Below are positions 28,261 through 60,035 of a stretch of 64,000 bases of DNA, one piece after another. The notes below the pieces were generated by a model. The model saw only the letters and a list, made by a program, of their open reading frames with translations, was not told where the DNA came from and searched no databases. Source of the DNA: Nereocystis luetkeana (lineage: Eukaryota > Sar > Phaeophyceae > Laminariales > Laminariaceae); NCBI GenBank assembly GCA_031213475.1, contig JARUPZ010000013.1:5126739-5190738 (forward strand), given 5' to 3'. Position 1 is the stretch's first letter. Every line of letters begins with the position of its first letter. A program made the position numbers and the translations under genes.

Positions 28261-28386
28261 ATGTTCGTGATGAAGCGAGACGGCCGGAAGGAGCCGGTGG
28301 CATTCGACAAGATCACCGCAAGGATCAGCAACCTCTGCTACGGCCTGAACCCGAAGTACGTCGAGCCTGTCGTCATTGCTCAAAAG
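28261..28386 (+). CDS. RNR1: R1 exon 1 (residues 1-42)
   Basis: Starts [17 protein letters not shown], the opening of the ATP-cone allosteric domain, which senses ATP versus dATP. It ends at CAAAAG followed by a gtgggc donor, phase 0. No in-frame ATG lies just upstream; the preceding sequence is a CCCT pyrimidine tract and probable 5' untranslated region. Confidence 0.93.
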
Positions 28387-31300
28387 GTGGGCGCCGTCGT
28401 TTGCTGTTGCTGTTGCTGTTGCTGTCCCCTGCTCCATCACTCTACCGTATCACTCGGGTCTCGGGTCATACCAGGGTAACTCACTAGGTAACACCCGCCC
28501 TTTTACCGTACGAGTATTCTACCGCACATGTGATGAGATAACACGCCCCTTTATACCGCATCACACGGGTGATAATGTAACACCCCCGGGGTCAATTTCC
28601 CAACCGAGTTTCCCCAAAAACCCAGGGGGGGGGGGGGGGGAAGCGCACACAACGAAACAGGTGGCTTTGAAAAGATCTCTCTACGAGGTGTTTTCCACAG
28701 ACGCACCTTGCTCGGCGTTCGCACCTTTTGCCCATTGTCGGGAGAACGTCACCCGAGGGGGTGTATTATCTTATCACACGGGTGATACAGCATTCCTGTC
28801 GTCCTTCCTCCCACACCCGTTCATCCTCCCCCCATCCATCCTCCTCCTATTCATCCTCCTCTCGTCCCTTTCCTCCGAGCCGTCCAAAGGCTAGGTCATG
28901 TGCGGGGTACCTGTATGTAGTCTGGGGTACCCGCGTACCAAACCGGGTCGTTGTGGTCATATTATAACAGGTGCGTACTCCGGTGGGTACCCGGGTATCC
29001 CCAGAGTATCCCCAGAGTATATACCCGGGTACCTAACCGGGTTGTGGTCGTGCTTCGTATGTAGAGTACTCGGGAATGTACCCCCAGAGTATATACTTTT
29101 CCCCATGTATAGTAGTACTGCTGTGTATATATACTCTGGGGTAGCCGGGTACCGAACCTGGTTGGTTTCGGCCGTATAGGTACCCAGATACCAGACCCAA
29201 ACTTGGTTGTTTTGGTCATACACTGGTCGGTGTACGTACTCGTACCCTCTACGCAAGTATTACCTATTGATACCAGTGCCTACAATATGGTACATATATC
29301 TTACCAGGGTATATGTTAGCAATGACTTTTGTTTTTTTAGGTCGTTTCTACATTTGGACGAGTATCATGTTTTTTTCACCCTTCTTTTTTCGGTCTTGTT
29401 CGATCGATGCAGGTCATCGCGGGCGTGTATCCCGGCGTGACGACGTGCGAGCTGGATGAGCTAGCGGCCCAGACGGCGGCCTACATGGCCACACAGCACC
29501 GTAAGTCACACGAGCGCCCCAACCAACCATCCCATCGAGGAGCGGAGGGGAAGCGGGGGGAGGGGGGGTAAGGTTCCATTGGTGTTCCGCCTCAAATTGT
29601 GAGATGATGTGCCTGGCAGAGGGCGGGGGTCGGGAAGGTTGAGGTCCCAACGGGTTCCCACGTGGAGTTTTGGGATGCTGTAGCAGGAAGATGAGTGGGG
29701 GGGTGCAAGGTCCCAATGGTTGGCCGCCTCGTGTTCTAGGATACTGTAACAGGGAGAGGAGTGGGGGGGGTGCAAGGTTCCAATGGTTTTCCGACTCGAG
29801 TTTTGGGATGCTGTAGCAGGCAGATGAGTGGGGGGTGCAAGGTTCCAATGGTTGCCCGCCTCGAGTTTCGGGCTGTAGCGAGAGGGAATATCAACATCGA
29901 CATTATGTTGCCGTCCTTCTGTTAAGCCTCGCGCCGGGCTCTTTTTTCGTTTTTTTCTGCGAACCGAGCGAGCCTCGCTGGTGAGCTCGTGGCTTCATCC
30001 CACCCGCGTCGACAAGCAACTAACCGCCCCGTTAGATCTACGATACGTGCATCCTCTTTTTTTGGGGGGGGGGGGAACTACCTGAGATCGTTGTGGTACA
30101 TTTTTTTTGGCAGTGGGAAATTGAGTTCAACTATTATGCTCATACAGCTGCAGGAAACACCGCTTTGGCCTCCTGAGCGTGGATGCAGTTCCATACCAGG
30201 TAGGGATTACGGCGATCCCTTCGGTGACCTCACCCACGTGTTTTGATGGCTCACTGCTTGGAATTTCGGTATCCCTTTGTGCCGCAGTGAAAGGATCTGC
30301 GCCACCCCCTCCTGGAGCGTCATCCCCCACCCCGCTCTTTACCTTGTTCTGCTCATACCACATAAAACTCCAACTTGGCCCCCTCTCCCCCCCCCCCCAT
30401 CCGCTCTGCCTACTTATCCCCGTCCCCCCCTGCCCCTCATTTTACCCGCCAACCCAGCTCCTCCCATCCCCCCCCCCACCCCCCAATCCTCCCCTACAAT
30501 GGCCCCCATCCTCCCCTTCAGCCTCCCGTCTTCCCCTGCTGCTGCCCCGCCAAACTAGCAGCCGGCGATTGCAGTCGATATGACTCTCCTAGCCGCCCGT
30601 ATTTACACGGCGATGCGTCGAGCCTTCAGAAGAGCACCCCCCCCCCCCCCCCCCCATGGTCATACGACTACGGCCATGCACGAGATCGAGTACATTTCTC
30701 CTATCGAGTACCCCCCCCCTCCCCCCCCCATGTTGCCCCAGCTGTCAAATGCAACTCCCGGCAAAAGCAGCCGGCATGCCTCTTCTAGCCGACCGTATCT
30801 CTATGTCCACCCTTCACGAGAGAAGCCCCCGGATAAGATTAGTAAAAAGTTTCTACTGTAATACATTGAAACAACATGATGAGCGCCCAATCGTTGGAGG
30901 TGTCTCTGTTAGGAGTAGGAACGGTGCTCCGTCTCGAAAGGGATGCGTGGTCAATGGTCAAATGACTAAGGCAAGCAACAAATGAGTACGCCCCCCCCCC
31001 CCCCTCCCCCCCCCCCGCCTCTCCCCCCCTCGCCTCGCCTCCCTTCCGTGCTGCCGCCGCCTCCGATCCAACTACCGGCGAGAGCAGCTGACATGTCTCT
31101 CCTAGCCGCCCGCATCTCTGTATCCAACCTTCACAAGAGCACGCCGCCAACGTTCAGCAAGACGATCGAGAAGCTTCATGGGTACATCATGCCCCAGACG
31201 GGCGAGAAGTCTCCGCTTATCTCGGACGAGGTTTACGGCATCGTCATGGAGGTCGGTTGGGGGAAGGGGGGGGAGGGGGGGGGGGGGGGAGGGGGCGGCG

Positions 31301-34300: not shown

Positions 34301-37300
34301 AACCCAGTCCCTACATGGCAGTAGTACGCTTGTGACTAGGACCCCCCCCCCGCGCCTTGCATGATGTGGGCGTGAACAAAAACCTTGTGGAGACATGGGC
34401 AATGTGGCACACCATTAGGCGTACCGACCTGACAGGTTGCCCACACCCTGTGGGGTGTGCTACTTTATTCGCGTCTCCGCCAGAATTTTTTAATGCCCAC
34501 ATTTTTGCAAGGCGGGGGGGGGGTGTCCCGACCACCTGTGTAGGGACACCTGGTAGTTGTTTCGTTGGTGTTTTCTGTTTTTCCACCAGTTCGTTTATGT
34601 ATTTATTTATTTTTTTCGTGTTTTTGTTCATGGCGTACGCAAATGATATCTGCGGAACACGCATTTGCACATATTTTTTCGGGCGTTTGGGCGTGACATG
34701 TTGACGCTTAAGGCATTCACGGCGTGTGAGCCGTTCATATTCGACTTACTGACACAACGTTTAGGGTGCAGCTCACCCTTCATGCAAGTCGCCGAAAACC
34801 TCACGGTGCTTCGAGGTTGGCGCTAGCGATGTCTGCCTGGTCAGTGGAAACCCGACGTGCTCCGCCCCGATACTGGAGCGGTGCGAGGGTCTATGCTCAC
34901 ACGACTACGGCCATATATGATTATGGCGTACATCCCCCCCCCCGCCCCAACGCCTCTATCTCATCCGCCTCCCTCCCTCCTTCCCCGTTTTTCTTGTTGT
35001 TACTACTCTCACTTTTTGTGTTTACAGTGCGCGAGCATCTCGAAGCTCGCGGGGGGCATCGGCGTCTCCATCCACAGCATCCGAGCCACCGACTCGTACG
35101 TGGCGGGATCCAACGGCTCCGCCAACGGTCTCGTGCCGATGCTGAGGGTATTCAACGACACCGCCCGCTACGTGGACCAGGTGCGGGCGGGCTACGTAAC
35201 GGCCCCATAGCCCTACTGCTCTGTGTGTGCCGACTGAAGCTACTTCGGTGTGTACCGGCCAAAGGCTGCCCATCTGACCGAGAGTATAAGCCTCGTTTGG
35301 ACTATATATGTCAATATCAAACGAACCTTACGTTCCCGATCAGGGCGGTATCATACTACTGTAAGGTGTTGTCGACAATCCAATGTGGTTGAGGTGTAAC
35401 CGTATTTGAAACGGAACGACACACGAGGAGGTGGTGGTTGCTTCGGTGACTCAGAAGTTGCTCGGTTTTGCTGTTACGGGGGACCGTAGAAAATAGAACC
35501 AAATATTGATAGTAAAAATGGCGAAATATATAGGTATTTGTGTGCATCGTAGGTCCTATTTAATATGGTCCCCCGTAATGGTCAACCGACGGATCTACCT
35601 AACCAACAACAATACTTGGGGGTTGAAAATGTAACTGTCGCTTTGGTCATTGTTTTTCCACAGCAAGTAGTTTTTCGTGGGCTGGGATTGCTGTTACACG
35701 GGAAACAGGTTGCAAGAAACCCATCCCAACCAAGGTCTTCGCGAGCACCCGATCGGCAGACAGGCAGTGCGGTTCCCCTGTGTTCAGCCGCCTCCTCTCG
35801 TCGGCTGGAAACCCCCGTTAAATCCTTTCGAGGTGCTTCCACTTTTTGGGGGTGAAAATCACTGGAAATCGAGTGTAATCACATTTGCAGCGGTACTTAC
35901 AATACCAGGTAGGGTCTATGTTATGTGCTGTGGATGGTCTAGATCCTATCCTATCGTTATCATATGTTCGGAGTGCTCGCGTAGTCGGTACAGGGATTCG
36001 TGTGTAACGGTATTTGGGAGTTCCACACAGAAAATAGGCGTGTTTCTGTGTGGAGCATTCAACGGGTTTGGGGAATGTTTTGTCCGCCACTTCCTTCCGC
36101 CTCTTATGACTTACTTTTTTTTTCTTGTGTTCTTCGTGGGTACTATATATATATACCCTGCGGAGCTTCCACGTCATGAGTGCCCCCCCCCCGTCTGTGA
36201 ACCGATTCAGGCTCCGCCCATCGTATCAGTGAGCGCTTCGGACATGATCTGTCGTGCAGGATCTGTATCTATGGTACAGATCCAACCAAGGATACACGCC
36301 CTACAGATCGTGCAGATTGCACGGCTCCCACGCGGCAACATGACCTAGATTATACAGATCATACAGATCATACAGATCATACAGATCATACAGATCAGGG
36401 ATCTGTCCATCTGCCCCGAAATATCCAGAGTACTCAGTGGAAAATTGGCGACCTTTTCCGAGATGTGATTCACTCGTCCCTCCCTTTTCTGCTTTCCCTT
36501 CTAATTATAGAGTGGTGGTCGCGTTCGTTCCGTGAATTTCCTTGGTTCTCCCGATGATGCTTGATTTTTTGTCCGCCGCTTTTCGTTCTGGTGTTGTTTT
36601 GTTTTGTTTTGTTTCCCGTGATTGCTTTGCGTTTCCGGTCGTCGTTGACAGGGCGGGGGCAAGCGCAAGGGCTCCTTCGCCATGTACCTCGAGCCGTGGC
36701 ACGCCGACATCTTCGCCTTCCTCGACCTGAGGTATACACTACACTACACTACACTACACTACACTACACTACACTGCACTACACTACACTACACTACACT
36801 ACGGCATGCCGCTCTTAAAGCGGGAACATTAGAACCGTTGGGTTTTCATGCCTACGCACACACGCTCCTTGTGTCTCCGTTGAGGGTGGTGGCATTTTCG
36901 TTGAGAGTGGTGGGCCCACGAGCGAAAAATAAACCAGTAATGACGTGAGGCTCACTTTTCGGAGGACGCTGCTAACAAGAACCCTTTGAATGAATACAAA
37001 GCGTGCTCAGCGACGAGCGCGGCTCTTACAGATTTCTCGTGCTACTATTAATATTACACTCTCGCACTTGGAGTATTAGATGATGAGCTGTCGTATGCGC
37101 TATCAATATAATATGCTCGAGGTTGTGGAAGGGTGGTATCACAAGAAGGTTCTAAGCCTTGCACACGTCGGGTTTTTGTTTGCGGGCCCATGCCGTAATA
37201 ATGTATTAGACCAGATGTGGGCACCAGGTTCCATCCCCTCCACGTTTCCGCCTCATTATCACGACAGTCCCAGCGTATGCCAGATTTCGATACCAGGTCC

Positions 37301-43300: not shown

Positions 43301-43522
43301 GCAGCAGACAATGCGAGCGAGTTAGTACTCCTATTAATAGATGAGTACATCAAACGTATACCTGGTATAGCATATCGTAGCACAACGCAACACTTTAAAA
43401 CATGAGGCCCTGGTTTGAAATTCCGGCTCAAGCCGTTTTTGGTCACGTATTGCCTGCTTTTCGAATTTGGCAGCAGCACAGCAGCAGCAGCAACACAGCA
43501 GCAGCAACACAGCAGCAGCAGC

Positions 43523-43554
<32 letters not shown>

Positions 43555-52500: not shown

Positions 52501-55500
52501 GAGAAGATGCCTCCGTCATGGTAAGCTTTTCGACCATCCACTCATAACCAGGGCTGTTCACGGACTTGATCCAATCTCGCGGGTCAGGTCGGGTCGGACC
52601 GGTCCGTGATAATTTGAAAACATTCCGACCCGACCCGACCCGGCCCGGCCCGGCCCGGCCCGGCCCGGCCCGGCCCGGCCCGACCCGACCCGACCTGTGA
52701 TATTTCGAAAACAGCCTCACCCGACCCGCGGTTGGAGTCATGACCTGCTTATAACCCCCCTCCGGAGCATGCCTTAATCCGCTTAGGGCAGAGGCCTTAT
52801 CCCCTTCAAAACATGCCGTAAACCCCTTCAGTGCGTGCCGTAGGATTCCCTTTAGGTAGAACTGCACCGGACGTGTTTTTGAGACAAACTACTGGTAAGG
52901 AATGCGGGACATTTTTTTGTTATGTGGTAAAAAGGTTTTGTCGTCGGACGGACAGCTCAGAGGGGTCATCCCTGCAGTTCATGATCTACATCCCTCATGG
53001 TCAGACATATTGCTGATCTGTATGATCTGTGTGATCTATAGCTCATGTTGCCAGGTGGGAACCCTACAACGTGGTATATTCCAGCAGGATCTGTACTGTT
53101 GCAGATCCTGCACGGCCTCTCACATCGGCGTCTTATGATCTAGGACATGCTTCATGGGCTGGATATGAACTGTTACAGATCCTGCACGTGTCTCTCATAT
53201 CCGCGGCTTATGATCTGGACATGGTTCATGGGTTGGATCTGCACTATTACAGTTCCTGCACGGCCTCTCATATCGGCGGCTTATGATTTTAGACGATCTA
53301 CTGTATATCGTGATCTGTCCGGCTTCTGAACTAGTTGAGTGCTTTTTTGTTTGCAATGTTCTCAAAAGGGTTTGTGTCACCCTGGCCGATAATATAAACA
53401 CCATTCATAGGAGTATACCTGGTATAGATGTTACTGCCGAATCGGTGCTTACAAATCCGGGACACGGCGCAACTGATGCCTTTCCTTTCCCCCTCTTTCG
53501 CCCCTCCCACGTTCTCTACTACTTCCTTCCTTTTGACCATTTGTAGTTTCTTGTTTGCGTGATGCGTGTGTGTGTGTTTTTCTGAGATGCGCGTGCCACC
53601 CGTCGCCCACCCGCGCTCTCCTTACGCATTACTTCCGTTTGATCTTTTGTTTGTGTGTTCGTTTCGCGATCCTGTTTTTTTATTTTTATTTATTTTTTTC
53701 AAGATGCGTCTCCCGTTCGAGTCCGAGGGAGCCGCCAAGCTTAACAGAGATATCTTCGAGACCATCTACTTCGGTGCCGTCGAGGCCTCCGTCAAGGTCA
53801 GGGGGCGGTGGTGACGTCAGGCGTGGTGGTATTGATGGTGGTGTTGATTTTGATTGTGTTGGTGGTGGTGATGGTGGGTGCCGGGGGTGAATTTGGGTGA
53901 CGTGGGTGGTGGCGGTGGTGGTGGTGGTGGTGGTGGTGGTGGTGGTGGTGGTGGTGGTGGTGGTGGTGGTGGTGGTGGTAGTGGTGGTGGTAGTAGTGGT
54001 GGTGGTGATGGTGTTGGTGGTGGTGATAGTCGATGTCGGAGGTGATGTGGGGGATGTGGGTGTTGGTGATGGTGGTATTGGTGGTGGTGATGGTCGGTGT
54101 CAGGGGTGATGTGGGTGTTGGTTATGTTGGTGGTGTTGGTGGTGGTTGTATTGGTGGTGTTGGTTGTGTGGGTGGTGTTGGTGTTGGTGTTGGTGTTGGT
54201 GTTGGGTGTTGGTGGTGTTGGTGTTGGTTTAGGTGTTGGTGTTGGTGATAGGTGTCAGGAGTGGTGGGTGTGTTGGCGGCGGTGTGGGTTTGGGGGTTAC
54301 CATCAGTGATGGTTGTTGTCGCTGTAGCTGTTGGTGATGCTAGTGCTGGTGCTGCTGCTGCTGTTGCTGCTGCTCCCCTTCTATTGCCGTTATTACTACT
54401 GCCACTGCTACCACTGCTTCTGCTGCTGCTGCTGCTGCTGCTGCGGTTGCTGCTGCTGCTGCTACTACTACGTCTACCGTACCTACTCCAACCCCTGCTG
54501 CTGCAGTATTGCTTTTGCTGCCCCGCACATCGAAAGCCTTCTGCAGACGCCCTACCCCCCCCTCTCCGCTACCGCCGATTACTCAACTCACGACGTCGCC
54601 GCCCCCACCCCCATACCCTTGCGCTATTCCTCACGTCGTTTTTTCAGCTGGCGGAACAGCTGGGCCCGTACGAGACTTACGAGGGATCCCCCGCGTCTGA
54701 AGGACTCCTGCAGTACGACATGTGGGGTGTGACTCCGTCAGATAGATGGGACTGGGCTGGACTCAAGGTTGGTCACCCGCTGCTGAGTATGTGTTTGTGT
54801 GTTTTTGTCAGCAAGAGTTTTTTTTTTTTTCCCGGGCTTGTGCGTGACTGGGTAGGTTTTCCCTAAGTTTTTGACCTTTTTTATTTTTCTTGTTGGTGAT
54901 GGCTGTGTCGCATCGGCGGGCGACGTTGTTGTCGTACTGTTCTGGCAGCGCGTGTTGTGGTGTGTGTGTTGACGTTTTATTTTTGTAAGTGCATTTTTTT
55001 TTTCGCTTTTTAAACAATCGCATGTACTTTGCAGCTCTTTGGGAAGACCGAGGCTACAGGCCTCTTCCCCTTTTCTCCCTGCGTGCCTTCCTTTTTGTCT
55101 CGCAAAGGGCTCAACGTTCCCACTTTTGTCGGCCCAATAATCTTGCTAACTCACTCACGCTCTTGCGCTATTTATGGAGGACCATAGTAAATGAGACCTA
55201 CGGTACACACGAAAACCTATATGTTTCCCTATTTTTACTAACAATACTTGGTCCTATTTACTATGGTCCCCCGTCATAGTTTTCGACCTCATGTGTACGT
55301 GCGGATGACACGTTGGCATGTTTGCGCAGGCGAAGCTGGCGCAGCACGGCATGCGCAACTCGCTGCTCCTGGCCCCCATGCCCACGGCCTCGACCGCTCA
55401 GATTTTGGGGAACAACGAGAGCGTCGAGCCTTTCACTAGGTACGAACAGAGAGAGGGGAGGGTGGAAGGGAGAGGGGGAGAGAGGGAAATATGGAGGGAG

Positions 55501-58500
55501 GGAGGGAGGGAGGGAGGGAGCGAGGGAGCGAGGGAGTAAAACGTGTACGGGGGGGCAGGGAGGGACGAATGGGTTGAGGGAATGGGGAGGGGGAGAAGGA
55601 GTGGAAGAGAGATGGAGGGAGAAAATTAGGGAGGGAGGGAGAAGAATGTGACCGGTAGAGAGGGGGGGGGAGAAGGGGGGCCGGAAGGGGAGGAAGATAC
55701 ATTACCAAAGAACAGAGGTGAAGAGATAAGTAGGGAAATGAGTAGTTTGGGGTGTCCATTCGGTAGACACTTCTTGGAAATGTATTACCGGCGACGCGGG
55801 AGCGAAAAGACGGGGGGGGAATATGCTAAAGCCGGTGGGCGTAGGGCAGTGAGATCTAGCTCTAGGATGCAGGGTGTTGCGCGTGAAGTGACCGATCCCA
55901 TTTTTAAATCCATCTCCCGCTAGTGTTGCGTGTAGCGATAGGGTTCAAGTTCGGAACCGAAACTCCGATCTCCCTCCCCCCCTCCTCTTGCTCCATCCTA
56001 TCATATCCCCTCCGCACCCCCGCCAGCAACAATGCTGGAGTCATTCATGCCCCAATGCAATCTGCTATTTAACCCCACCCCCCCCGCACTCCTTGTCCTC
56101 TCTCTCCCCACCTTCCTCCTCTCCCCTCATCTCCCCCCCCCCTCTCTTCCGTTCCCCCCTCCTTCCTACCCCTTCTCGTCTTTCTCCTCTTCCCCCCCCC
56201 TCCCCCTTTTCTCTCTCATCCCCCCCCTCGTCCTCCTCCGCATCCCCCCCCAACCTTTTCCTTCCCCCTCTCCCCCCACCCCCTTCCCCCTGTTTGCCCC
56301 GCCCTCCCCCCGCCTCATGTCTCGTCCTCTATGTCTCTCCCCCTGCCAGCAACATGTACAACCGGAGGGTGCTGGCGGGAGAGTTTGCCGTTGTGAACAA
56401 GCACCTCTTACGAGACCTCACGCAGAGGGGCCTCTGGACTGCTGGAGTCCGAAACCAGATCATCGCCGACCAGGGTTCGGTGCAGAACGTTGACATCCCG
56501 CAGGATCTCAAGGTAAACCGTTCCGCGCGGTCCCGTGCTCTCTATCTCTCTCTTTCTCTTTGTTCGTGTTTCGCCGTGTTCTCTAGTTTGTGTCGAGTCA
56601 TGCTGTGTTCTATCCCTATCCACAATTTGTAGATTCGCTAGTAACTGTAGTGCCGACAAATGTGACGGAGGGAAAAACGCCTGCGGTAACTGAAACTCGA
56701 GAAGGGGAAAGTATCCGGCCCTGCAAGATTCACTGGCCCGATACCGTCGCGGCCAACTCATCATGATGTGCGTTGCGATACAACGGCCCCACTGCACCTG
56801 GCACGGATACCTTTCAGATGTATACCTGTTGACGCGCCCCACGTGCATGCCCCCCGGCCCTCGCCGTTCCCCTTCAGGATCTGTACAAGACGGTGTGGGA
56901 AATCAAGCAGAAGGTGGTCATCGATATGGCAGCGGAGCGGGGGGCGTTTATCTGCCAGTCTCAGTCTATGAACGTGCACATGGCCGATCCCACTCAGGTA
57001 AGGCGTGGGGGTGAGGTGTGAATGTTGAGGGGTGAGGCTGTAGGAGTACTTTGGGCGGCGATGATGGTGATGGTCATGGTGTTGGTGTTGGTGTTGGTGT
57101 TGGTGTTGGTTTTGTTTGGTGCCGTTGTAGTGATGGTGATGGTGATGGTGTTGGTGTTGGTGTTGGTTTGGTGTTGGTTTTGGTGTTGGTGTTGATGTGG
57201 GTGTTAGTGTTGGTGTAGGTGTTGGTGTCGGTGTTGGTGTTGGTATAGTGCTGGTGTTGGTGTTGGTGTTGGTGTTGGCGTTGGTGTTGGTGTTGTTGTC
57301 GTTGTCGTTGTTGGTGTTGGTTTTGTTGGTGTGGTGTGGTGTTGGTGTTGATGCTAGTATTGGTGTTGGTATTAGTATTGGTGTTGGTGAAGGTGTAGTC
57401 GTAGGTGTTGGTGTTGGTTTAGTTGTTGGTGTAGGTGTTGGTGTAGGTATCGGTGTTGGTGTTGGTGCCTGTGTTGATGTATGGTGTTGGTGTTGATGTT
57501 GATGTTGTCGTCGTTGTTGTTGACACTGTCTTTGTTGTTGTTGATGATGTTCCATGTGTGTGTTTTCGTTTTTTTTTTTCGTGTTTCGCCACACAGGGCA
57601 AGCTTACCTCGATGCACTTCTACGCGTGGAAGAAGGGCCTGAAGACGGGCATGTACTACCTCCGCACCAAGCCGAGGGCGCACGCCATCCAGTTCACCGT
57701 TGACCAGGAGGTTAGTTTCGACTATTACACACCTCGGATAGGGAGATCATGATCTAGACAATCTAGACCCTAACCCGCCTTTGTGATATTTTGTGCCGGA
57801 TGTGCATATCACAGATCCTAGCCTGCCGTTGTGAGATGATGTGCAGGGTGTGCATCTATTGTACAGGTCCAACTCAAGAAACACGTTCTACAGTAGATTG
57901 CGCAGGTTGCCTGGTTATCACTCGGAAACATGAGCTGTAGATCATACAAATTATAAATATGGCTTGCTCTACACGATTTACCGTAGATCATGAAGTCGGA
58001 GATCCTGAAGTGGGAATCGATGCTGTGTCCTACAGTAGGTGCGGACTAGAACCGCCTGGAGGGGGGTCAATTATGTGTTCGACTCGTTCAGCATTGCCGT
58101 GGACCCGCTGCTACTTGGGTGTAGTGGTAAAATGATTAGTAGTCGGCCCACTAAACAACGAAAGGAGCTGTTCGACGTGGGCTGGATCAACAAATTACTG
58201 TCGCTGTTTGTACTGCTGCCTGCTCACACTGTCGCTATCTAGGTGGGTAATTAACTACGTGGGGAACCAGAAGGGGGGGGGGGGTGTCGACAAAAAGGGC
58301 GGTTTGCTAGAGCTATATGCGTTGGCTGGAGTTGATTCCACTTGATGGCTACCTGGTAGTTATGAGTTGGGCGTGGCGACGTCTGCCGATTGCTTGACAT
58401 CATTTTTCTCTCTCGTATTTACTAACAAATGATACATTCTGAAAGCGGCAAATGCGCCGGCAAAACACGAACACGCCGCCGAACTCGCTAAGCTGCCGCA

Positions 58501-59622
58501 CGCAACGAACTGCAGTACATACCAGGTACCACTCTTTATCCACAAATAGCAGGACCTTTCTGTATATACAAACAATCCTTACATTTAGTGAAATAGCGGT
58601 GTACCAGATAGACGACGCATAACTATTTGCCAGTTTCTAGTCGATCAACTCACAGCTTTAACCAATGCGGCATGGGCCACACCCGAGGCAACCCGCGCTG
58701 TTCGGGCGGACTGTAGGGTACACAATCTGTCCCCCACCCCCCAATAGACTCACCGCGGTATCCATTTTCAGCTTTTTGGCTGTTTTGAGCCACTTGGGAG
58801 ACGTGAAAGGAGACAAAATGAGCGGGAAAAGGTCGTTTCGTGAAACCGACCATGAAGAGTGTGCAATAGTATGCGTGTCATCGGGCACACACCCTTACCT
58901 CGACAGCCTGGACTGCTTTCCGTGACTGATGTTGTCATCCTCATTTTTTACTCATTCCTCTGGAGTCGGTAAGGGGTTGTACCTTGTGTGCGTGAGAGAG
59001 AGGGAATGGGGTGGGGGTGGGGAGCGGGGGGCGGAGGAGGTGTTGAGCCGCGACTAATATGGCTTACCCGTTCGTAACGAAGTATTTCTGTGGTTTCCCT
59101 GCGCACACGCTGGCTGGGATCACGACCCTAAGAGCTATGCTGAACGTATCCTGTCCCGGATTTGACAACCGCGGTATTTAACGGCCGGGACCGAACTCAA
59201 ACTCCAGAAGGTATGTACGTACGGCACTTGGAGTAGACTGTCGTTTTGGCTGTACCTTCCCCTAGTGAACACCCTGCCTCCTCTGACGTATTTGCGGTAC
59301 TGTGCTTTGACGTACTGTAGTCTTATAGTTTGACCAGTCTTAGCTGCAGGTGACGGGCGAGCTTTGCGCTGGTAGTTTTTCGCCTTTATGACGTGTTTTA
59401 GGTGTTTTTGTGATTCCCTCAACCCCCCAATGTCTCGCAACCCTCACCCTCACCCTCCAACGTCTCGCACCCCCACGCCCCCCCGCGCTCACCCCGTGGT
59501 CGAATCAGTCTCTGGCGTTAGCGGTGAAAGAGCAGGCTCAACTCCGAAGGCAGGGGTCAGAAGAGCCTGCTGCGAAGACGCAAGAAGACGACGAGGAAGA
59601 GTGCCTCACCTGCTCGGCTTGA
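28261..59622 (+). CDS. RNR1: Ribonucleoside-diphosphate reductase large subunit (class I R1), 20 exons
   Basis: R1 reduces ribonucleoside diphosphates to deoxyribonucleotides in the cytosol, working with the radical-bearing small subunit R2 (not in this window). The 20 exons total 2,388 nt and encode 795 residues plus stop, close to the usual eukaryotic length of about 790. All junctions are GT/AG and in phase. Seen in order: N-terminal ATP cone (about 1-90), catalytic barrel with Cys218 and Cys444 as the redox pair, Asn427/Cys429/Glu431 in the radical site, specificity loop 2 GGGKRKG (289-295), the PMPTAS phosphate-binding segment (605-610), the Tyr740-Tyr741 radical-transfer pair, and a C-terminal Cys790-x-x-Cys793 tail. 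The start is the first Met of the cone, in context gcaaccATG. No frameshift or missing residue was found, so the gene looks functional. Numbering matches human R1 closely up to about residue 500. Confidence 0.97.
29413..29500 (+). CDS. RNR1: R1 exon 2 (residues 43-72)
   Basis: Acceptor tgcag, then [20 protein letters not shown]; the donor is gtaagt, splitting codon 72 after its first base. It continues the ATP cone. The following intron begins with a run of about 68-bp tandem repeats. Confidence 0.92.
29570..29880. repeat. RNR1: 68-bp tandem repeat, R1 intron 2
   Basis: Five units marked by AAGGTTCCAATGGTT-like starts at 29,571, 29,640, 29,707, 29,776 and 29,839, each ending GATGAGTGGGGGG or similar. 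Confidence 0.85.
30553..30627 (+). repeat. Decayed copy of R1 exon 3 start (outer)
   Basis: ATGACTCTCCTAGCCGCCCG matches exon 3 (ATGTCTCTCCTAGCCGCCCG) with two changes. Upstream CTAGCAGCCGGCGATTGCAG resembles the real acceptor region. It degenerates into poly-C after GAGCA. Confidence 0.8.
30656..30712 (+). repeat. Family D dispersed repeat, copy 3 (partial)
   Basis: Lies between the two decayed exon 3 copies in R1 intron 2, bounded by poly-C on both sides. Confidence 0.7.
30742..30838 (+). repeat. Decayed copy of R1 exon 3 start (inner)
   Basis: ATGCAACTCCCGGCAAAAGC then AGCCGGCATGCCTCTTCTAG align with the true acceptor and exon 3 start; similarity runs about 90 bp to near 30,838. The frame reads [15 protein letters not shown] against [15 protein letters not shown]. 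Confidence 0.82.
31088..31251 (+). CDS. RNR1: R1 exon 3 (residues 72-126)
   Basis: Completes Pro72 and reads [18 protein letters not shown], the end of the ATP cone and start of the barrel domain. Its acceptor follows an extreme C/CT tract. Its donor runs directly into about 170 nt of G-rich DNA. Two decayed copies of this exon's 5' part lie upstream at about 30,553 and 30,748. The acceptor was fixed by the phase carried over from exon 2. Confidence 0.92.
31252..31430 (+). repeat. RNR1: G-rich tract directly after R1 exon 3
   Basis: About 170 bp of nearly pure G with A/T/C interruptions, starting 10 bp into intron 3; strongly G-quadruplex-prone on the RNA-like strand. Confidence 0.9.
31786..31880 (+). 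CDS. RNR1: R1 exon 4 (residues 127-158)
   Basis: Acceptor ttttcag; reads [20 protein letters not shown] then [11 protein letters not shown], the classic R1 stretch before the barrel. Donor gtaagc splits Arg158 after two bases. A family A element lies 43 bp downstream. Confidence 0.94.
31924..32023. mobile_element. Family A MITE-like element, copy 2
   Basis: In R1 intron 4, 43 bp after exon 4. The left arm is diverged (CTGGGGACCATATTTGAATA), the right arm good (ACTATGGCCCCCCG), with TA on both sides. Confidence 0.75.
32253..32352. mobile_element. Family B hairpin element, copy 3
   Basis: In R1 intron 4. Arms CCCCTTTTAGAACTGCGGTC and its near-complement; centre ACACACACATATTATAAG. Confidence 0.8.
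32718..32784 (+). CDS. RNR1: R1 exon 5 (residues 158-180)
   Basis: Acceptor gcggcag; reads [20 protein letters not shown], the conserved ERxQHMxMRVA segment. Donor gtacgc, phase 0. This is the shortest exon, 67 nt. Confidence 0.94.
32880..32930. repeat. RNR1: CCCA tetranucleotide array, R1 intron 5
   Basis: (CCCA)n of about 45 bp. 33,130-33,530 in the same intron is CAGACAGA/CAGGCAGA-rich. Confidence 0.9.
33630..33768 (+). repeat. Family D dispersed repeat, copy 4
   Basis: Full-length copy in R1 intron 5, including the CTGGTCGGTGGAAACCCGAC extension on the left and poly-C on the right. Confidence 0.75.
34024..34194 (+). CDS. RNR1: R1 exon 6 with catalytic Cys218
   Basis: 57 codons, residues 181-237. 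It carries [17 protein letters not shown], in which Cys218 is the substrate-side redox cysteine. Asp226 and Ser227 follow at the dNTP specificity site. Acceptor atttcag, donor gtcacg, phase 0 at both ends. Confidence 0.95.
34827..34945 (+). repeat. Family D dispersed repeat, copy 5
   Basis: Diverged copy in R1 intron 6 (GTGCGAGGGTCTATGCTCAC), ending in poly-C 83 bp before exon 7. Confidence 0.7.
35028..35180 (+). CDS. RNR1: R1 exon 7 (residues 238-288)
   Basis: 51 codons. [15 protein letters not shown] plus the loop-1 region [13 protein letters not shown] of the specificity site. It ends RYVDQ immediately before loop 2, so intron 7 cuts the allosteric specificity loop from its stem. Acceptor tttacag, donor gtgcgg. 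Confidence 0.95.
35477..35575. mobile_element. Family A MITE-like element, copy 3
   Basis: In R1 intron 7. Flanked TTA...TAA; ends CGGGGGACC and GGTCCCCCG, with paired TATTT/AAATA inner arms. Confidence 0.8.
36250..36420. repeat. CAGATC family repeat and ATACAGATC microsatellite
   Basis: A 9-bp (ATACAGATC)n array at 36,353-36,397 inside a copy of a dispersed CAGATC-rich family, related to 23,590-23,720 and 57,740-58,020. Confidence 0.8.
36652..36731 (+). CDS. RNR1: R1 exon 8 with specificity loop 2
   Basis: Residues 289-315, [27 protein letters not shown] is loop 2, linking effector and substrate sites. The donor gtatac leads straight into an ACACT microsatellite. Codon 315 (Arg) is split after two bases. 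Confidence 0.94.
36732..36801. repeat. RNR1: ACACT pentanucleotide array at the exon 8 donor
   Basis: (ACACT)n begins 3 bp after the donor GT of exon 8 and runs about 65 bp. Confidence 0.95.
37218..37560. repeat. RNR1: 75-bp tandem repeat, R1 intron 8
   Basis: Five diverged units marked by ACCAGGTCCCATCCCC and CCGCCT-ATTATCACGACAG. Confidence 0.85.
37715..37885 (+). repeat. About 170-bp dispersed repeat, copy 1
   Basis: CCAGCGAGGAGTGCCCCTCC, CAAGAGCCTTGCGCTCAACG and TGGCCAAAATAGGAGA recur at 49,325-49,490. Confidence 0.7.
38480..38587 (+). repeat. Family D dispersed repeat, copy 6
   Basis: In R1 intron 8, directly before poly-C and the decayed exon 9 copy. Confidence 0.75.
38602..38652 (+). 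repeat. Decayed copy of R1 exon 9 acceptor
   Basis: TTCCGCCTGCTTGCTCAAGG aligns with TTCCGCCTGCCTGTTGATTG before the true acceptor, and AAAACCA and GCCAATGAG align with the exon start. A poly-C tract follows both copies of the unit. Confidence 0.65.
38736..38824 (+). CDS. RNR1: R1 exon 9 (residues 315-345)
   Basis: [20 protein letters not shown] then DLFMKRVES. Acceptor ttgaag follows two long poly-C tracts and a decayed copy of the same exon start (about 38,602-38,652). Donor gtgagt opens a 10.2-kb intron. Confidence 0.93.
38919..39018. mobile_element. Family A MITE-like element, copy 4
   Basis: In R1 intron 9, 94 bp after exon 9. Ends CGAGGGACC and GGTCCCCCG, TA at each side. Confidence 0.8.
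39105..39884 (+). repeat. 390-bp near-identical tandem duplication
   Basis: GCAAGACATTGTCGGATGAC starts at 39,121 and again at 39,511. The two 390-bp units differ at only a handful of sites, so the duplication is recent. Each holds an open frame starting [20 protein letters not shown]; because 390 is a multiple of three the frame repeats, but nothing suggests it is a gene. Confidence 0.92.
40706..40803. repeat. 49-bp perfect tandem duplication
   Basis: GAAAATTGGGTAAAAAAACG begins at 40,706 and 40,755; the two 49-bp units appear identical. Confidence 0.95.
40874..40981. mobile_element. Family B hairpin element, copy 4
   Basis: In R1 intron 9, with TTAA at both ends, suggesting a TTAA-type target duplication. 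The right arm has a small duplication (TCCCCAATCGTCCCC). Confidence 0.8.
41721..41818. mobile_element. Family A MITE-like element, copy 5
   Basis: Ends CGGAGGACCATAGTAAATAG and its complement, TA flanks. It lies 17 bp from copy 6. Confidence 0.8.
41836..41941. mobile_element. Family A MITE-like element, copy 6
   Basis: Opposite orientation to copy 5. Its inner part carries an extra CCAGGTATAC segment, lengthening it to about 106 bp. Confidence 0.75.
42158..42251. mobile_element. Family B hairpin element, copy 5
   Basis: Right arm complete (GGACTGCGGTCCTAAAAAGG), left outer arm eroded. Confidence 0.75.
42505..42545 (-). repeat. Decayed tRNA-Pro-derived fragment
   Basis: TTCAGCTGGAATTTGAAACC matches the T arm and acceptor of the nearby tRNA-Pro-like copies with several changes. 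It pairs with the plus-strand fragment at 43,402 as part of the inverted repeat. Confidence 0.5.
42681..42753 (-). tRNA. tRNA-Pro(UGG)-like sequence, copy 1
   Basis: 73 nt on the minus strand. It folds with 7-bp acceptor, D arm with A-box, anticodon stem CCTCA/TGAGG, loop TTTGGGT (anticodon TGG, proline), 5-nt variable loop and T arm CTGGG/CCCAG. One acceptor pair is a U-U mismatch (positions 6-67). The same mismatch is in copies 2 and 3, and similarity extends beyond the tRNA on both sides, so this is more likely a tRNA-derived repeat than a single-copy gene. Confidence 0.6.
43156..43228 (+). tRNA. tRNA-Pro(UGG)-like sequence, copy 2
   Basis: Same 73-nt cloverleaf as the minus-strand copy at 42,681, in opposite orientation, with the same U6-U67 mismatch. 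It is followed by a T run, a possible RNA polymerase III terminator, and by AAAATCGA, which the other copies share. It forms one arm of a large inverted repeat with copy 1. Confidence 0.6.
43402..43438 (+). repeat. Decayed tRNA-Pro-derived fragment
   Basis: GAGGCCCTGGTTTGAAATTC followed by CGGCTCAAGCCG is a diverged tRNA 3' half in the plus orientation, followed by a T run as in the intact copies. Confidence 0.5.
43469..43560. repeat. CAG/CAA array
   Basis: (CAG)n with CAA interruptions, followed by CACAA and a repeated GCAATCCAAC stretch to 43,650. It belongs to the right arm of the 42.3-43.6-kb inverted repeat. Confidence 0.9.
43945..44830. repeat. Large inverted repeat, ATCCAGCA family
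   Basis: Left arm 43,945-44,185 and right arm 44,600-44,830 are complementary over more than 200 bp (for example CCCGTCGACATCCAGCA, AAAACTACGCCACAG, CTGGATACGACAGGC). The roughly 415-bp centre has purine- and pyrimidine-rich ends that also pair loosely. Confidence 0.8.
45133..45224. mobile_element. Family B hairpin element, copy 6
   Basis: Arms AAACCCGTTTGAGGACGGTC and GGGACTGCTGTCCTAAATGG; the left arm has a short deletion. Confidence 0.75.
45255..45348. mobile_element. Family B hairpin element, copy 7
   Basis: 30 bp after copy 6. Arms GCTTTTAGGACTGCAGCCCC and CAAAACGAGACTGCAGC; the right end is eroded. Confidence 0.75.
45905..46330. repeat. About 350-bp dispersed repeat, copy 2
   Basis: Partner of the repeat at 25,290. 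A second internal segment (46,380-46,660) repeats the GCGAAGCGCACTCGGC and GCTTCACAGCTGAAAATGCGA portions. Confidence 0.75.
46789..46861 (-). tRNA. tRNA-Pro(UGG)-like sequence, copy 3
   Basis: Identical 73-nt tRNA-like body on the minus strand with TGG anticodon and the shared acceptor mismatch. It again has upstream CCTGATCA (reading with the tRNA) and downstream CGATTT. All three copies lie in R1 intron 9. Confidence 0.6.
47139..47251. mobile_element. Family A MITE-like element, copy 7
   Basis: Flanked TTA...TAA with CGGGGGACC/GGTCCCCCG ends; about 113 bp, with a small inner insertion. Confidence 0.8.
47567..47661. mobile_element. Family B hairpin element, copy 8
   Basis: Arms CCCTTAAGAACCGCAGTCCC and GGGATTGCGGTTCTAAGAGG. 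Confidence 0.8.
48074..48211 (-). repeat. Family D dispersed repeat, copy 7
   Basis: Full-length minus copy in R1 intron 9, ending at a poly-G run (poly-C on its own strand). Confidence 0.75.
49065..49222 (+). CDS. RNR1: R1 exon 10 (residues 345-397)
   Basis: Acceptor ttttcgcag; [20 protein letters not shown], then [18 protein letters not shown]. Phase agrees with exon 9 although the two lie 10.2 kb apart. Donor gtacac. Confidence 0.93.
49325..49490 (+). repeat. About 170-bp dispersed repeat, copy 2
   Basis: CAGCGAAGAACGCCCCTCTA, CAAGAGCTTACGCCCAACG and TGGCCAAGATAGGAGA match the copy at 37,715. Confidence 0.7.
49599..49694. mobile_element. Family B hairpin element, copy 9
   Basis: In R1 intron 10. 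Near-perfect palindrome, immediately abutting copy 10. Confidence 0.85.
49693..49809. mobile_element. Family B hairpin element, copy 10
   Basis: Shares its left edge with copy 9. The right arm contains an internal partial duplication (AATGGGACCTTGTCCTAAG) making it longer. Confidence 0.8.
50924..51052 (+). CDS. RNR1: R1 exon 11 with radical-site Asn427, Cys429, Glu431
   Basis: Residues 398-440, [20 protein letters not shown] then [17 protein letters not shown]. The NLCTE motif carries the thiyl-radical cysteine, Cys429, and its partners. The acceptor ctgaag follows about 155 nt of C-rich tract. Donor gtatga. Confidence 0.95.
51085..51500. repeat. RNR1: GATATCGAACGA tandem/dispersed repeat in R1 intron 11
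   Basis: Three diverged units of about 125 bp (GTTGGATACCGAACAAGAAG, GTTGATATCGAACGACAACC, GTTGGATATCGGACGAAAAT), followed by a segment shared with 19,860-20,030. Confidence 0.65.
51625..51720 (+). CDS. RNR1: R1 exon 12 with redox Cys444
   Basis: Residues 441-472, [20 protein letters not shown], ending FDFQRLYE. Cys444 is the disulfide partner of Cys218. Donor gtaaac. The exon end plus intron start recur as decayed tandem copies downstream (51,735-52,080). Confidence 0.94.
51735..52085 (+). repeat. Decayed tandem copies of R1 exon 12 end
   Basis: The exon end TTCGACTTCCAACGCCTCTA plus donor GAGGTAAACCAG recurs as CCTTCGACCGCAGAGGATCT/ACGAAACAAACCAGA (51,850), CCAGACTCCTCTATCGCGAG/GTGTAAGCCAGA (51,958) and TACTTCCAACGCCTCTACGG (52,060). 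A shared GTGGTGCCGGC lead-in recurs about every 50-100 bp. Confidence 0.75.
52177..52314 (+). CDS. RNR1: R1 exon 13 (residues 473-518)
   Basis: [20 protein letters not shown], then [18 protein letters not shown], the most conserved R1 signature region. The acceptor cctcag lies after a roughly 95-nt CCCT tract; donor gtgagc. A decayed donor copy lies at 52,507. Confidence 0.95.
52340..52860. repeat. RNR1: Short tandem repeats in R1 intron 13
   Basis: Units of about 31 bp containing CCCCTTNAGGGCRTGCCTTA at 52,342-52,480 and 52,745-52,850, on either side of a (CCCGG)n minisatellite at 52,620-52,700. Confidence 0.8.
52507..52549 (+). repeat. Decayed copy of R1 exon 13 donor
   Basis: ATGCCTCCGTCATGGTAAGC matches the exon 13 end ATGCCTTCATCATGGTGAGC, and similarity continues into the intron (TTCGACCATCCACTCATAAC against TTCGACCACCCGTCTGTAAC). 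The GT donor is kept. Confidence 0.82.
53085..53300. repeat. 74-bp tandem repeat with CAGATC motif
   Basis: CAGATCCTGCACGGCCTCTC at 53,102, then 53,176 and 53,250, a strict 74-bp period, in R1 intron 13. Confidence 0.88.
53578..53620 (+). repeat. Possible decayed copy of R1 exon 14 acceptor
   Basis: TTTTTCTGAGATGCGCGTGC compares with TTTTTTCAAGATGCGTCTCC at the true acceptor. It is short and partly low-complexity. Confidence 0.4.
53704..53796 (+). CDS. RNR1: R1 exon 14 (residues 519-549)
   Basis: Acceptor ttcaag; [20 protein letters not shown], then [11 protein letters not shown]. The donor gtcagg opens an intron dominated by a GGT/GTTGGT microsatellite. Confidence 0.93.
53910..54300. repeat. 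RNR1: GGT and GTTGGT microsatellite, R1 intron 14
   Basis: (GGT)n to about 53,990, then (GTTGGT)n variants, then CTG-rich sequence to 54,480. It fills most of intron 14. Confidence 0.95.
54648..54767 (+). CDS. RNR1: R1 exon 15 (residues 550-589)
   Basis: Acceptor ttttttcag; [20 protein letters not shown], then [16 protein letters not shown], the R1 GPYETYxGSP signature. Donor gttggt. Confidence 0.95.
55175..55273. mobile_element. Family A MITE-like element, copy 8
   Basis: In R1 intron 15, 56 bp before exon 16. Ends GGAGGACCATAGTAAA and TTTACTATGGTCCCCCG. Confidence 0.8.
55330..55439 (+). CDS. RNR1: R1 exon 16 with substrate phosphate-binding PMPTAS
   Basis: Residues 590-626, [20 protein letters not shown] then [17 protein letters not shown] (605-610) binds the substrate diphosphate. 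Acceptor gcgcag, donor gtacga, Ser626 split after two bases. Confidence 0.95.
55965..56345 (+). repeat. RNR1: C-rich polypyrimidine tract before R1 exon 17
   Basis: About 380 bp, overwhelmingly C and T, holding one decayed acceptor copy. Similar tracts precede exons 3 (30,985-31,050), 9 (38,580-38,720), 11 (50,756-50,912) and 13 (52,081-52,176). Confidence 0.9.
56015..56055 (+). repeat. Decayed copy of R1 exon 17 acceptor
   Basis: CCGCCAGCAACAATGCTGGA compares with CCTGCCAGCAACATGTACAA at the true site; both follow C-rich tracts. Confidence 0.6.
56350..56512 (+). CDS. RNR1: R1 exon 17 (residues 626-680)
   Basis: [20 protein letters not shown], then the RDLTQRGLW helix. The acceptor ctgccag comes after a roughly 370-nt C-rich pyrimidine tract. 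A decayed copy of this acceptor lies at about 56,020-56,055. Confidence 0.94.
56878..56997 (+). CDS. RNR1: R1 exon 18 (residues 681-720)
   Basis: [20 protein letters not shown], then [15 protein letters not shown]. Acceptor ccttcag, donor gtaagg, phase 0. The usual RGAFIDQSQS has Cys in place of Asp here. Confidence 0.94.
57060..57540. repeat. RNR1: TTGGTG hexanucleotide array, R1 intron 18
   Basis: (TTGGTG)n with substitutions fills the intron between exons 18 and 19. The long minus-strand PTPTPT/HQHQ frames here are artefacts of the repeat. Confidence 0.95.
57597..57710 (+). CDS. RNR1: R1 exon 19 with radical-transfer Tyr740-Tyr741
   Basis: Residues 721-758, [20 protein letters not shown] then YLRTKP. 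The adjacent tyrosines pass the radical between R2 and Cys429. Acceptor cacacag, donor gttagt. Confidence 0.95.
57740..58025. repeat. CAGATC family dispersed repeat
   Basis: Shares CCTGCCGTT, GGTCCAACTCAAGAAACA and GTAGATTGCGCAGGT with 23,640-23,735 (CCTGCCGTT, GGTCCAATTCAGGAAACA, GTAGATCACGCAGGT). In R1 intron 19. Confidence 0.7.
59509..59622 (+). CDS. RNR1: R1 exon 20: C-terminal tail with CxxC redox pair
   Basis: Residues 759-795 and stop. It is charged and flexible, ending [11 protein letters not shown]. Cys790 and Cys793 form the mobile tail dithiol that re-reduces the active site and is recharged by thioredoxin or glutaredoxin in the R1 family. Acceptor aatcag. The stop-codon end is repeated in decayed form downstream. 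Confidence 0.92.
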   Translation, partial: SLALAVKEQAQLRRQGSEEPAAKTQEDDEEECLTCSA

Positions 59623-60035
59623 AATCAACGCTGCTGGTTTCCTATTGATGTTGATGGGGTGCTGGGGGTTGGGGCTGGGGAGATGCCTGACCTACCTGCT
59701 CGGCTTGAATTGACTACACGTGTTTCATACGAGATTGATGGCGCTAGGGCGGGAGCGGGGCTGGAGGGGTGCCCTACCTGCGCTCGGCTAACTGATTACG
59801 CGGGTTCCCCAACGAAGTTGATAGCGCGGGTGAAGGGGTGCTCGGGTTGAGCTGGACGCCGCGGGATTTTCACGAGGTTGACGACGTGAACAGACGGGGA
59901 TATGATAATGACGTCACTTGCTCGCTTGGACTGCACGCTGCGAGTTTCCCACGGGGCTGATGGCAGCGAATGGGTGGCGGCGTCACCCTCGTCTTGTAGT
60001 TGAGTCCTATGAGAAACGCTAGAGCCTAGAACGGA
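59623..60035 (+). repeat. Decayed tandem copies of the R1 stop-codon end
   Basis: TACCTGCTCGGCTTGA at 59,693 repeats the exon 20 end CACCTGCTCGGCTTGA, 86 bp later. Further units start with TACCTGCGCTCGGCTAA (about 59,777), GCTCGGGTTGAGCTGG (about 59,840), CACTTGCTCGCTTGGA (about 59,928) and CACCCTCGTCTTGTAG (about 59,986), each followed by a GTTTCC...GTTGATGGCG-like stretch. Confidence 0.8.

Follow-up and report, generated by a model that had tools for sequence, protein, structure and literature searches.

Decayed copies of exon edges in the R1 gene of Nereocystis luetkeana as probable traces of short tandem duplications that met exon borders by chance

Why should the introns of a gene contain degenerate copies of its own exon edges? 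The question is raised by the gene for the large subunit of ribonucleotide reductase (R1) in a 64,000-nucleotide stretch of Nereocystis luetkeana DNA, here called the window (assembly GCA_031213475.1, contig JARUPZ010000013.1, positions 5,126,739 to 5,190,738 of the forward strand). An earlier note, made from the sequence alone, had reported diverged copies of exon edges ("echoes"), with their splice sites or stop codon, beside exons 3, 9, 12, 13, 17 and 20, and perhaps 14, and had proposed an ongoing process that duplicates exon-intron borders. We found that copies of several edges are real, and that they are no more frequent at exon edges than at points inside introns. Very probably, the echoes are decayed remains of short tandem duplications that occur throughout the genome, decay neutrally and caught exon borders by chance.

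The gene was identified by two kinds of match: a search of the Protein Data Bank with the protein joined from its exon parts found large-subunit chains of ribonucleotide reductase (best E 4e-95), and five open frames of the locus matched Pfam PF02867, the barrel domain of this enzyme. The splice map consists of 20 exons, separated by 19 introns that are all of the GT-AG type, and specifies 795 amino acids plus a stop codon in an intact frame, open throughout. In the whole assembly (465 Mb, 1987 contigs) there were 26 PF02867 matches, confined to the contig of the window (C13) and two others, C4 and C20. Identities of 41-91% to the window protein indicate that the C4 and C20 series are diverged paralogues. 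The sequence stretch examined gave no match to residues 1 to ~148 of the C20 paralogue, and the exons for them lay outside the edge tests; the exon list of C4 omits a weak protein match (4478-4567; 43%, E 0.024), which is perhaps itself an echo.

In order to score the echoes, we tested 40 edges of R1 (38 splice edges, the start and the stop). Each query comprised up to 60 bp of exon and 60 bp of flank and was compared with the adjoining intron or flank (up to 3 kb) after masking of simple sequence, with 500 dinucleotide shuffles as background and the reverse complement as the inverted control; a copy was considered strong at z>=4. Edges or points with too short a target were dropped, as were points in which masking affected more than 30 bases.

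Strong direct copies were obtained at 5/40 edges and strong inverted copies at none of the 40. The highest score was that of the exon 3 start (z 26.8, the copy lying in the adjoining intron), followed by the ends of exon 12 (z 10.7), exon 20 (z 7.8, in the 3' flank), exon 13 (z 6.7) and exon 8 (z 4.7). The alignments revealed two copies for exon 3, approximately four for exon 12 (two of them partial), approximately four for exon 20, and one each for exons 8 and 13. Below the threshold were the exon 14 end (3.7), the exon 11 end (3.4) and the exon 13 start (2.5). With the target limited to 1.5 kb and 60 shuffles, z>=4 was reached at 7/40 edges, in five cases by a copy straddling the edge.

Several edges were retested with narrow, unmasked targets, conditions that favour the claims of the earlier note. 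The exon 8 echo remained significant when the exon bases were used by themselves (p=0.001), which was not the case for the exon half of the exon 13 echo (p=0.17). The exon 9 start (p=0.73 in the masked 40-edge test) gave p=0.002 for its C-rich acceptor region, p=0.028 with a shorter query and p=0.11 for the exon bases alone. For the exon 17 start (p=0.058 in the masked test) the corresponding values were 0.012-0.015, and 0.72 for the exon alone. The echoes of exons 9 and 17 are thus marginal and lean on pyrimidine-rich acceptor regions. The exon 11 end gave p=0.008, but the exon end alone 0.62, and the match near exon 14 sits in a TGG-type repeat just outside the exon, whose end gave p=0.91. 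Of the six exons that the earlier note had named firmly, therefore, four (3, 12, 13 and 20; z 6.7-26.8) do have decayed edge copies, two (9 and 17) are doubtful, its tentative exon 14 is lost, and exon 8 is a new case.

Six splice-site copies were inspected by eye, and in five of them (both of exon 3, those of exons 8 and 13, and unit 3 of exon 12) the AG or GT was retained, the one without its dinucleotide being unit 2 of exon 12. The units of the intron 12 array are spaced at ~100 bp and those beyond the stop codon at ~80-85 bp. The idea of a spare whole exon 3 was rejected, as the later part of the exon was not significant in either echo (echo 2, p=0.20; echo 1, p=0.08); demonstrable copying of this exon is limited to its first ~60 bases.

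If a process were aimed at exon-intron borders, as the earlier note had proposed, edges should exceed other positions. Since a match at z>=4 need not cross the edge itself (among nine scoring paralogue edges, five were aligned on the intron side only, three straddled the edge and one lay within the exon), we counted straddling copies, i.e. direct copies at z>=4 that continue for 10 bases or more on each side of the edge or point, and applied the same limit of target length to edges and intron points. In R1 such copies were found at 5/40 edges and, with the 10-kb intron 9 left aside, at 27/206 intron points (Fisher p=1.0); intron 9 itself gave 24/215. The same comparison in other genes gave 1/28 edges versus 11/84 intron points for the C4 paralogue, 2/26 versus 25/134 for the C20 paralogue, and 2/58 versus 48/418 for eight stretches holding MCM exons, and 60/568 points scored in arbitrary stretches. 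When R1, both paralogues and the MCM stretches were combined, straddling copies occurred at 10/152 edges and 111/842 intron points (p=0.02 for fewer at edges, a value to be read with the overlap of intron points and the interdependence of edges within one gene in mind). Local copies are not enriched at exon edges over intron points.

The counts of matches that need not straddle were in line with this result. Among 837 tests inside R1 introns, 183 (21.9%) gave direct and 126 (15.1%) inverted copies at z>=4; without intron 9 (n=405) the numbers were 80 (19.8%) and 31 (7.7%), compared with 12.5% and none at the true edges. Net of inverted matches, edges and introns without intron 9 thus stand at ~12% each. 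Direct and inverted copies were found at 4/30 and 2/30 edges of the C4 paralogue (two of these edges were lost from the straddle test because of short targets or masking), at 5/26 and 2/26 of the C20 paralogue, and at 4/58 and 4/58 MCM edges (30 exons), other positions of the MCM stretches giving 92 and 39 of 622. The edges of these other genes were placed by protein matches and may be some bases off; of 43 MCM matches 30 were used, while 12 on three small contigs with identical scores and one beyond the stretch taken were excluded. An independent scan agreed: a score of 100 was reached by 11.4% of windows containing 40-80 exon bases (n=88), 29.7% of intron-interior windows (n=1452) and 12.6% of those outside the gene (n=1965).

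The earlier note had itself set beforehand, as the refutation of its proposal, an equal density of echoes in random intron segments, and equal density is what was observed; its suggestion to repeat the search on other genes likewise brought no excess at edges. Its comparison with shuffled sequence came out in favour of the echoes of exons 3, 8, 12, 13 and 20.

What generates copies at edges and intron points alike is indicated by their orientation. In the self-comparison of the window, pairs less than 600 bp apart comprised 28 direct and no inverted repeats, while pairs at 2-16 kb comprised 38 and 43. We extended the analysis to 16 stretches of 10 kb placed at round coordinates of the genome (i.e. 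not randomly drawn), in which pairs starting less than 600 bp apart were direct in 101 cases and inverted in three, compared with 16 and 17 at 5-10 kb. A surplus of direct over inverted pairs that is seen at short range only is characteristic of tandem duplication, since dispersed elements have no such bias. The local pairs of the 16 stretches had a median start-to-start distance of 329 bp (10-90 percentile, 150-730 bp) and a median aligned length of 150 bp, and their identities ranged from below 60% to above 90%, which suggests that duplication events of many ages are mixed.

R1 is not exceptional in this respect. The proportion of sequence covered by pairs within 1 kb is 10.1% for the gene, 12.9% and 17.3% for the two paralogue regions, and on average ~14.7% for the 16 stretches (range 0-54%). 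In these stretches, z>=4 was reached by 161/1122 points in direct and 62/1122 in inverted orientation. The repeat density of R1 is no outlier within this genome, where density varies from place to place.

The sequence of events that we consider highly probable is as follows. Short tandem duplications would be initiated anywhere in the genome, presumably by repair of DNA breaks or by replication slippage. Those within exons would mostly be purged, whereas those within introns or across a border would be tolerated, the latter because the outer splice site, which keeps the full exon, still yields a normal mRNA. The spare copy, left on the intron side, would then decay neutrally, and repeated rounds may have produced the arrays of intron 12 and of the region 3' of the stop codon. 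With the exon copy held still by selection, a border-straddling pair should stay recognisable for longer than an intronic pair of equal age, and this would make exon edges look special in any search that starts from exons. In ten echo alignments, 280/359 positions were identical in the exonic halves and 327/472 in the intronic or flank halves (stratified z 2.4); the better preservation of the exonic halves is as predicted if selection freezes the exon copy. The rule of the earlier note that the true site is always the copy with the full exon holds, and is accounted for by selection together with geometry, as the extra copy made by a straddling duplication ends up on the side of the intron. The local duplications, and the AG or GT kept in most inspected copies, also support its view that duplication has lengthened the introns of R1 and left degenerate, candidate decoy splice sites.

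Several observations weigh against this explanation. Copies do not generally lie strictly side by side. Those of exon 3 align over 69-79 bp at distances of 512 and 317 bp in the self-comparison. Among 124 local direct pairs of the 16 stretches, 32% were separated by no more than 20% of the period and 47% by more than half of it; with about half of the pairs parted so widely, adjacency at birth is an assumption. Density is uneven, the first 28 kb of the window having a coverage by pairs within 1 kb of just 6.0%, with 44/572 direct and 28/572 inverted points at z>=4. Inverted matches are not rare inside introns, so part of the signal there comes from dispersed repeats, and straddled edges are more frequent in R1 than in the other genes (5/40 versus 5/112, p=0.13). 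The 19 exact duplications of the sample have units of merely 12-49 bp, too short for junctions to be read, and the youngest long tandem duplication seen in the window is a 390-bp unit in intron 9 (39105-39886), present in two copies that are 99% alike. Since the sample contains few duplications that are both long and young, an old burst is possible, and the "ongoing" character that the earlier note gave to the process was not borne out.

Table 1. Positions of the R1 gene, its exon edges with echoes, and the paralogous exon series (window positions unless a contig is named)
Feature	Position	Strand	Evidence
R1 gene, start codon to stop codon	28261..59622	+	PF02867 matches, Protein Data Bank match, splice map, open frame
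Exon 3, true copy	31088..31251	+	splice map
Echo 1 of exon 3 start (intron 2 end and first ~60 exon bases, AG kept)	30503..30643	+	alignment; self-comparison 75% over 69
Echo 2 of exon 3 start (AG kept)	30711..30830	+	edge test, self-comparison, alignment
Exon 8, true copy	36652..36731	+	splice map
Intron 8 echo of exon 8 end, donor included (absent from earlier note)	37570..37637	+	z 4.7; exon alone p=0.001
Marginal echo, exon 9 acceptor region	38581..38637	+	p=0.73 masked; p=0.002 unmasked narrow retest
Weak echo near exon 11 end (stronger repeat there is intronic)	51236..51310	+	z 3.4; p=0.008; exon end alone 0.62
Exon 12, true copy	51625..51720	+	splice map
Copy series of exon 12 end with donor, occupying much of intron 12	51829..52080	+	z 10.7; alignments
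Individual intron 12 copies	51829-51853 (partial), 51845-51940, 51945-52050, 52055-52080 (partial)	+	alignments
Exon 13, true copy	52177..52314	+	splice map
Echo of exon 13 end with donor	52503..52549	+	z 6.7; exon half alone p=0.17
Marginal echo, exon 17 acceptor	55970..56031	+	p=0.058; narrow retest 0.015; exon alone 0.72
Exon 20 with stop codon, true copy	59509..59622	+	splice map
Copy series of exon 20 end/stop-codon region	59682..59963	+	z 7.8; alignments
Individual copies 3' of exon 20	59682-59743, 59763-59849, 59840-59888, 59880-59963	+	alignments
R1 exon series, paralogue with own introns and local repeats	C4:6206197-6216359	+	PF02867/protein matches
R1 exon series, paralogue with own introns and local repeats	C20:8060058-8073004	-	PF02867/protein matches

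Of the other explanations, the one that survives best, though we think it rather unlikely, is that C-rich or G-rich tracts stall replication and so seed the duplications, the pyrimidine tracts of acceptors being such C runs. The copies of the exon 3 start adjoin C-runs (by eye), and C-rich tandem repeats precede exons 9, 13 and 17, but such runs do not flank both sides of the echoes of the exon 12, 13 and 20 ends (by eye). Seeding of this kind would be a variant of the tandem-duplication explanation rather than an alternative to it.

A process that prefers exon-intron borders, for example through breaks at splice-site sequences or at sequences prone to R-loops, could explain why the strong R1 echoes are direct and never inverted, why several edges have multiple copies, and why R1 edges exceed those of other genes, although the last difference is not significant. 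We regard it as very improbable, because intron points of R1 are hit equally, those of all genes together are hit more often than edges, and neither the paralogues nor the MCM stretches have an edge excess.

Still less credible is a history of intron gain, either by tandem duplication of an exon segment bearing AGGT (the Rogers model) or by the spread of introners. Tandem duplication is indeed involved, and the intron at protein position 71.3 faces continuous coding sequence in the C4 paralogue match. However, none of the 19 introns begins like the next exon or finishes like the previous one at p<=0.01, and Rogers-type gain is thus not visible in their present, decayed state. When eight echo units were compared with the window (20 shuffles per section), none recurred apart from the exon 13 unit, which had one marginal match in inverted orientation, and so, as far as this window-only search extends, they are not introners of the window. 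Chance resemblance combined with simple-sequence similarity accounts for exon 14, and perhaps for exons 9, 11 and 17, but as a general explanation it is barely conceivable, being ruled out by the shuffles for exons 3, 8, 12 and 20, and for exon 13 too when splice site and intron are included.

Comparable events have been described in other organisms; the following comparisons draw on portions of the cited papers. The closest case is an RdRp gene of potato, which acquired a new intron and exon through a tandem duplication spanning an intron-exon border; a second tandem duplication, of 83 bp, lies wholly inside its first intron (PMC4974935). Exon 3 of R1 resembles it in the kind of starting event, but in R1 the extra copy became part of the intron and degenerated. 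In mammalian cells, small tandem duplications arise when staggered breaks are filled in and their ends joined (PMC8355091). These duplications are adjacent and, like the local pairs described here, direct copies of local sequence that need no repeats, whereas they are mostly shorter than 100 bp and young, compared with spacings of 150-730 bp, diverged copies and a presumed mechanism in our case. Tandem duplications have also been identified as the source of some novel intron positions in Drosophila (PMC2891723). There too, tandem duplication near splice sites alters gene structure, but by creating an intron from a duplicated exonic proto-splice site, the signature that the R1 introns lack. In Ectocarpus, introns account for ~46% of the genome, with tandem repeats distributed rather evenly (PMC12477816).

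The ~four copies in intron 12 and in the region after the stop codon, spaced ~80-100 bp apart, also resemble minisatellite-like arrays, from which they differ in that copies are few, are 60-90% alike and include one coding exon per array. The break-repair paper on small tandem duplications cites a rice study by Vaughn and Bennetzen (2014). Among the papers listed by searches of the open-licence literature (subscription papers being outside its scope), which included papers on intron gain, we found no report of duplicated exon borders causing intron growth, nor any on this gene.

The introns of R1 also carry other elements. Three tRNA-Pro (TGG) genes, each with an Rfam score of 58.7 bits, are located in intron 9 (42681-42753, reverse strand; 43156-43228, forward; 46789-46861, reverse), two of them near other repeated segments. 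A dispersed element of ~100 bp with mutually inverted ends was recognised by eye in several introns (at 55.17-55.28, 41.72-41.94, 47.14-47.26 and 38.92-39.03 kb, among others), and self-comparison revealed a ~90-bp fold-back element that forms direct pairs between introns 9 and 10 (45.13-45.35, 47.57-47.67 and 49.60-49.78 kb, among others). A further dispersed repeat is followed by a C-run (33627-33742, 34817-34933 and ~38.43-38.59 kb; on the reverse strand, with a G-run, near 48.07-48.20 kb); in the self-comparison one pair shares 79% identity over 117 bp, the other copies having been found by eye.

Beyond the gene, the open frame at 62318-62710 resembles (by eye) a segment of a Copia-type retrotransposon. 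A plasmid search gave prokaryotic reductases among the records listed (20 of 551), the best with 40.4% identity, and a scan for viral contigs gave three pattern matches, none of them confirmed. Elsewhere in the assembly, near-identical intronless matches to RNA polymerase beta were present on ~95 small contigs, which are probably plastid copies left in the assembly.

These results turn a seemingly targeted process at splice sites into a measurable background process of mutation, and they caution that searches anchored on exons over-report duplication at borders. If duplications of this kind are as frequent as our sample suggests, they help to explain the long introns of this lineage, and a spare intronic copy, set beside the exon fixed by selection, becomes a simple yardstick of neutral decay. 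We tentatively raise the possibility, which is less likely than its converse, that short-range tandem duplication is frequent enough to have been, alongside transposons, a main builder of these introns, and that border-straddling pairs, of which selection has frozen one half, are fossils that carry a date and could calibrate it.
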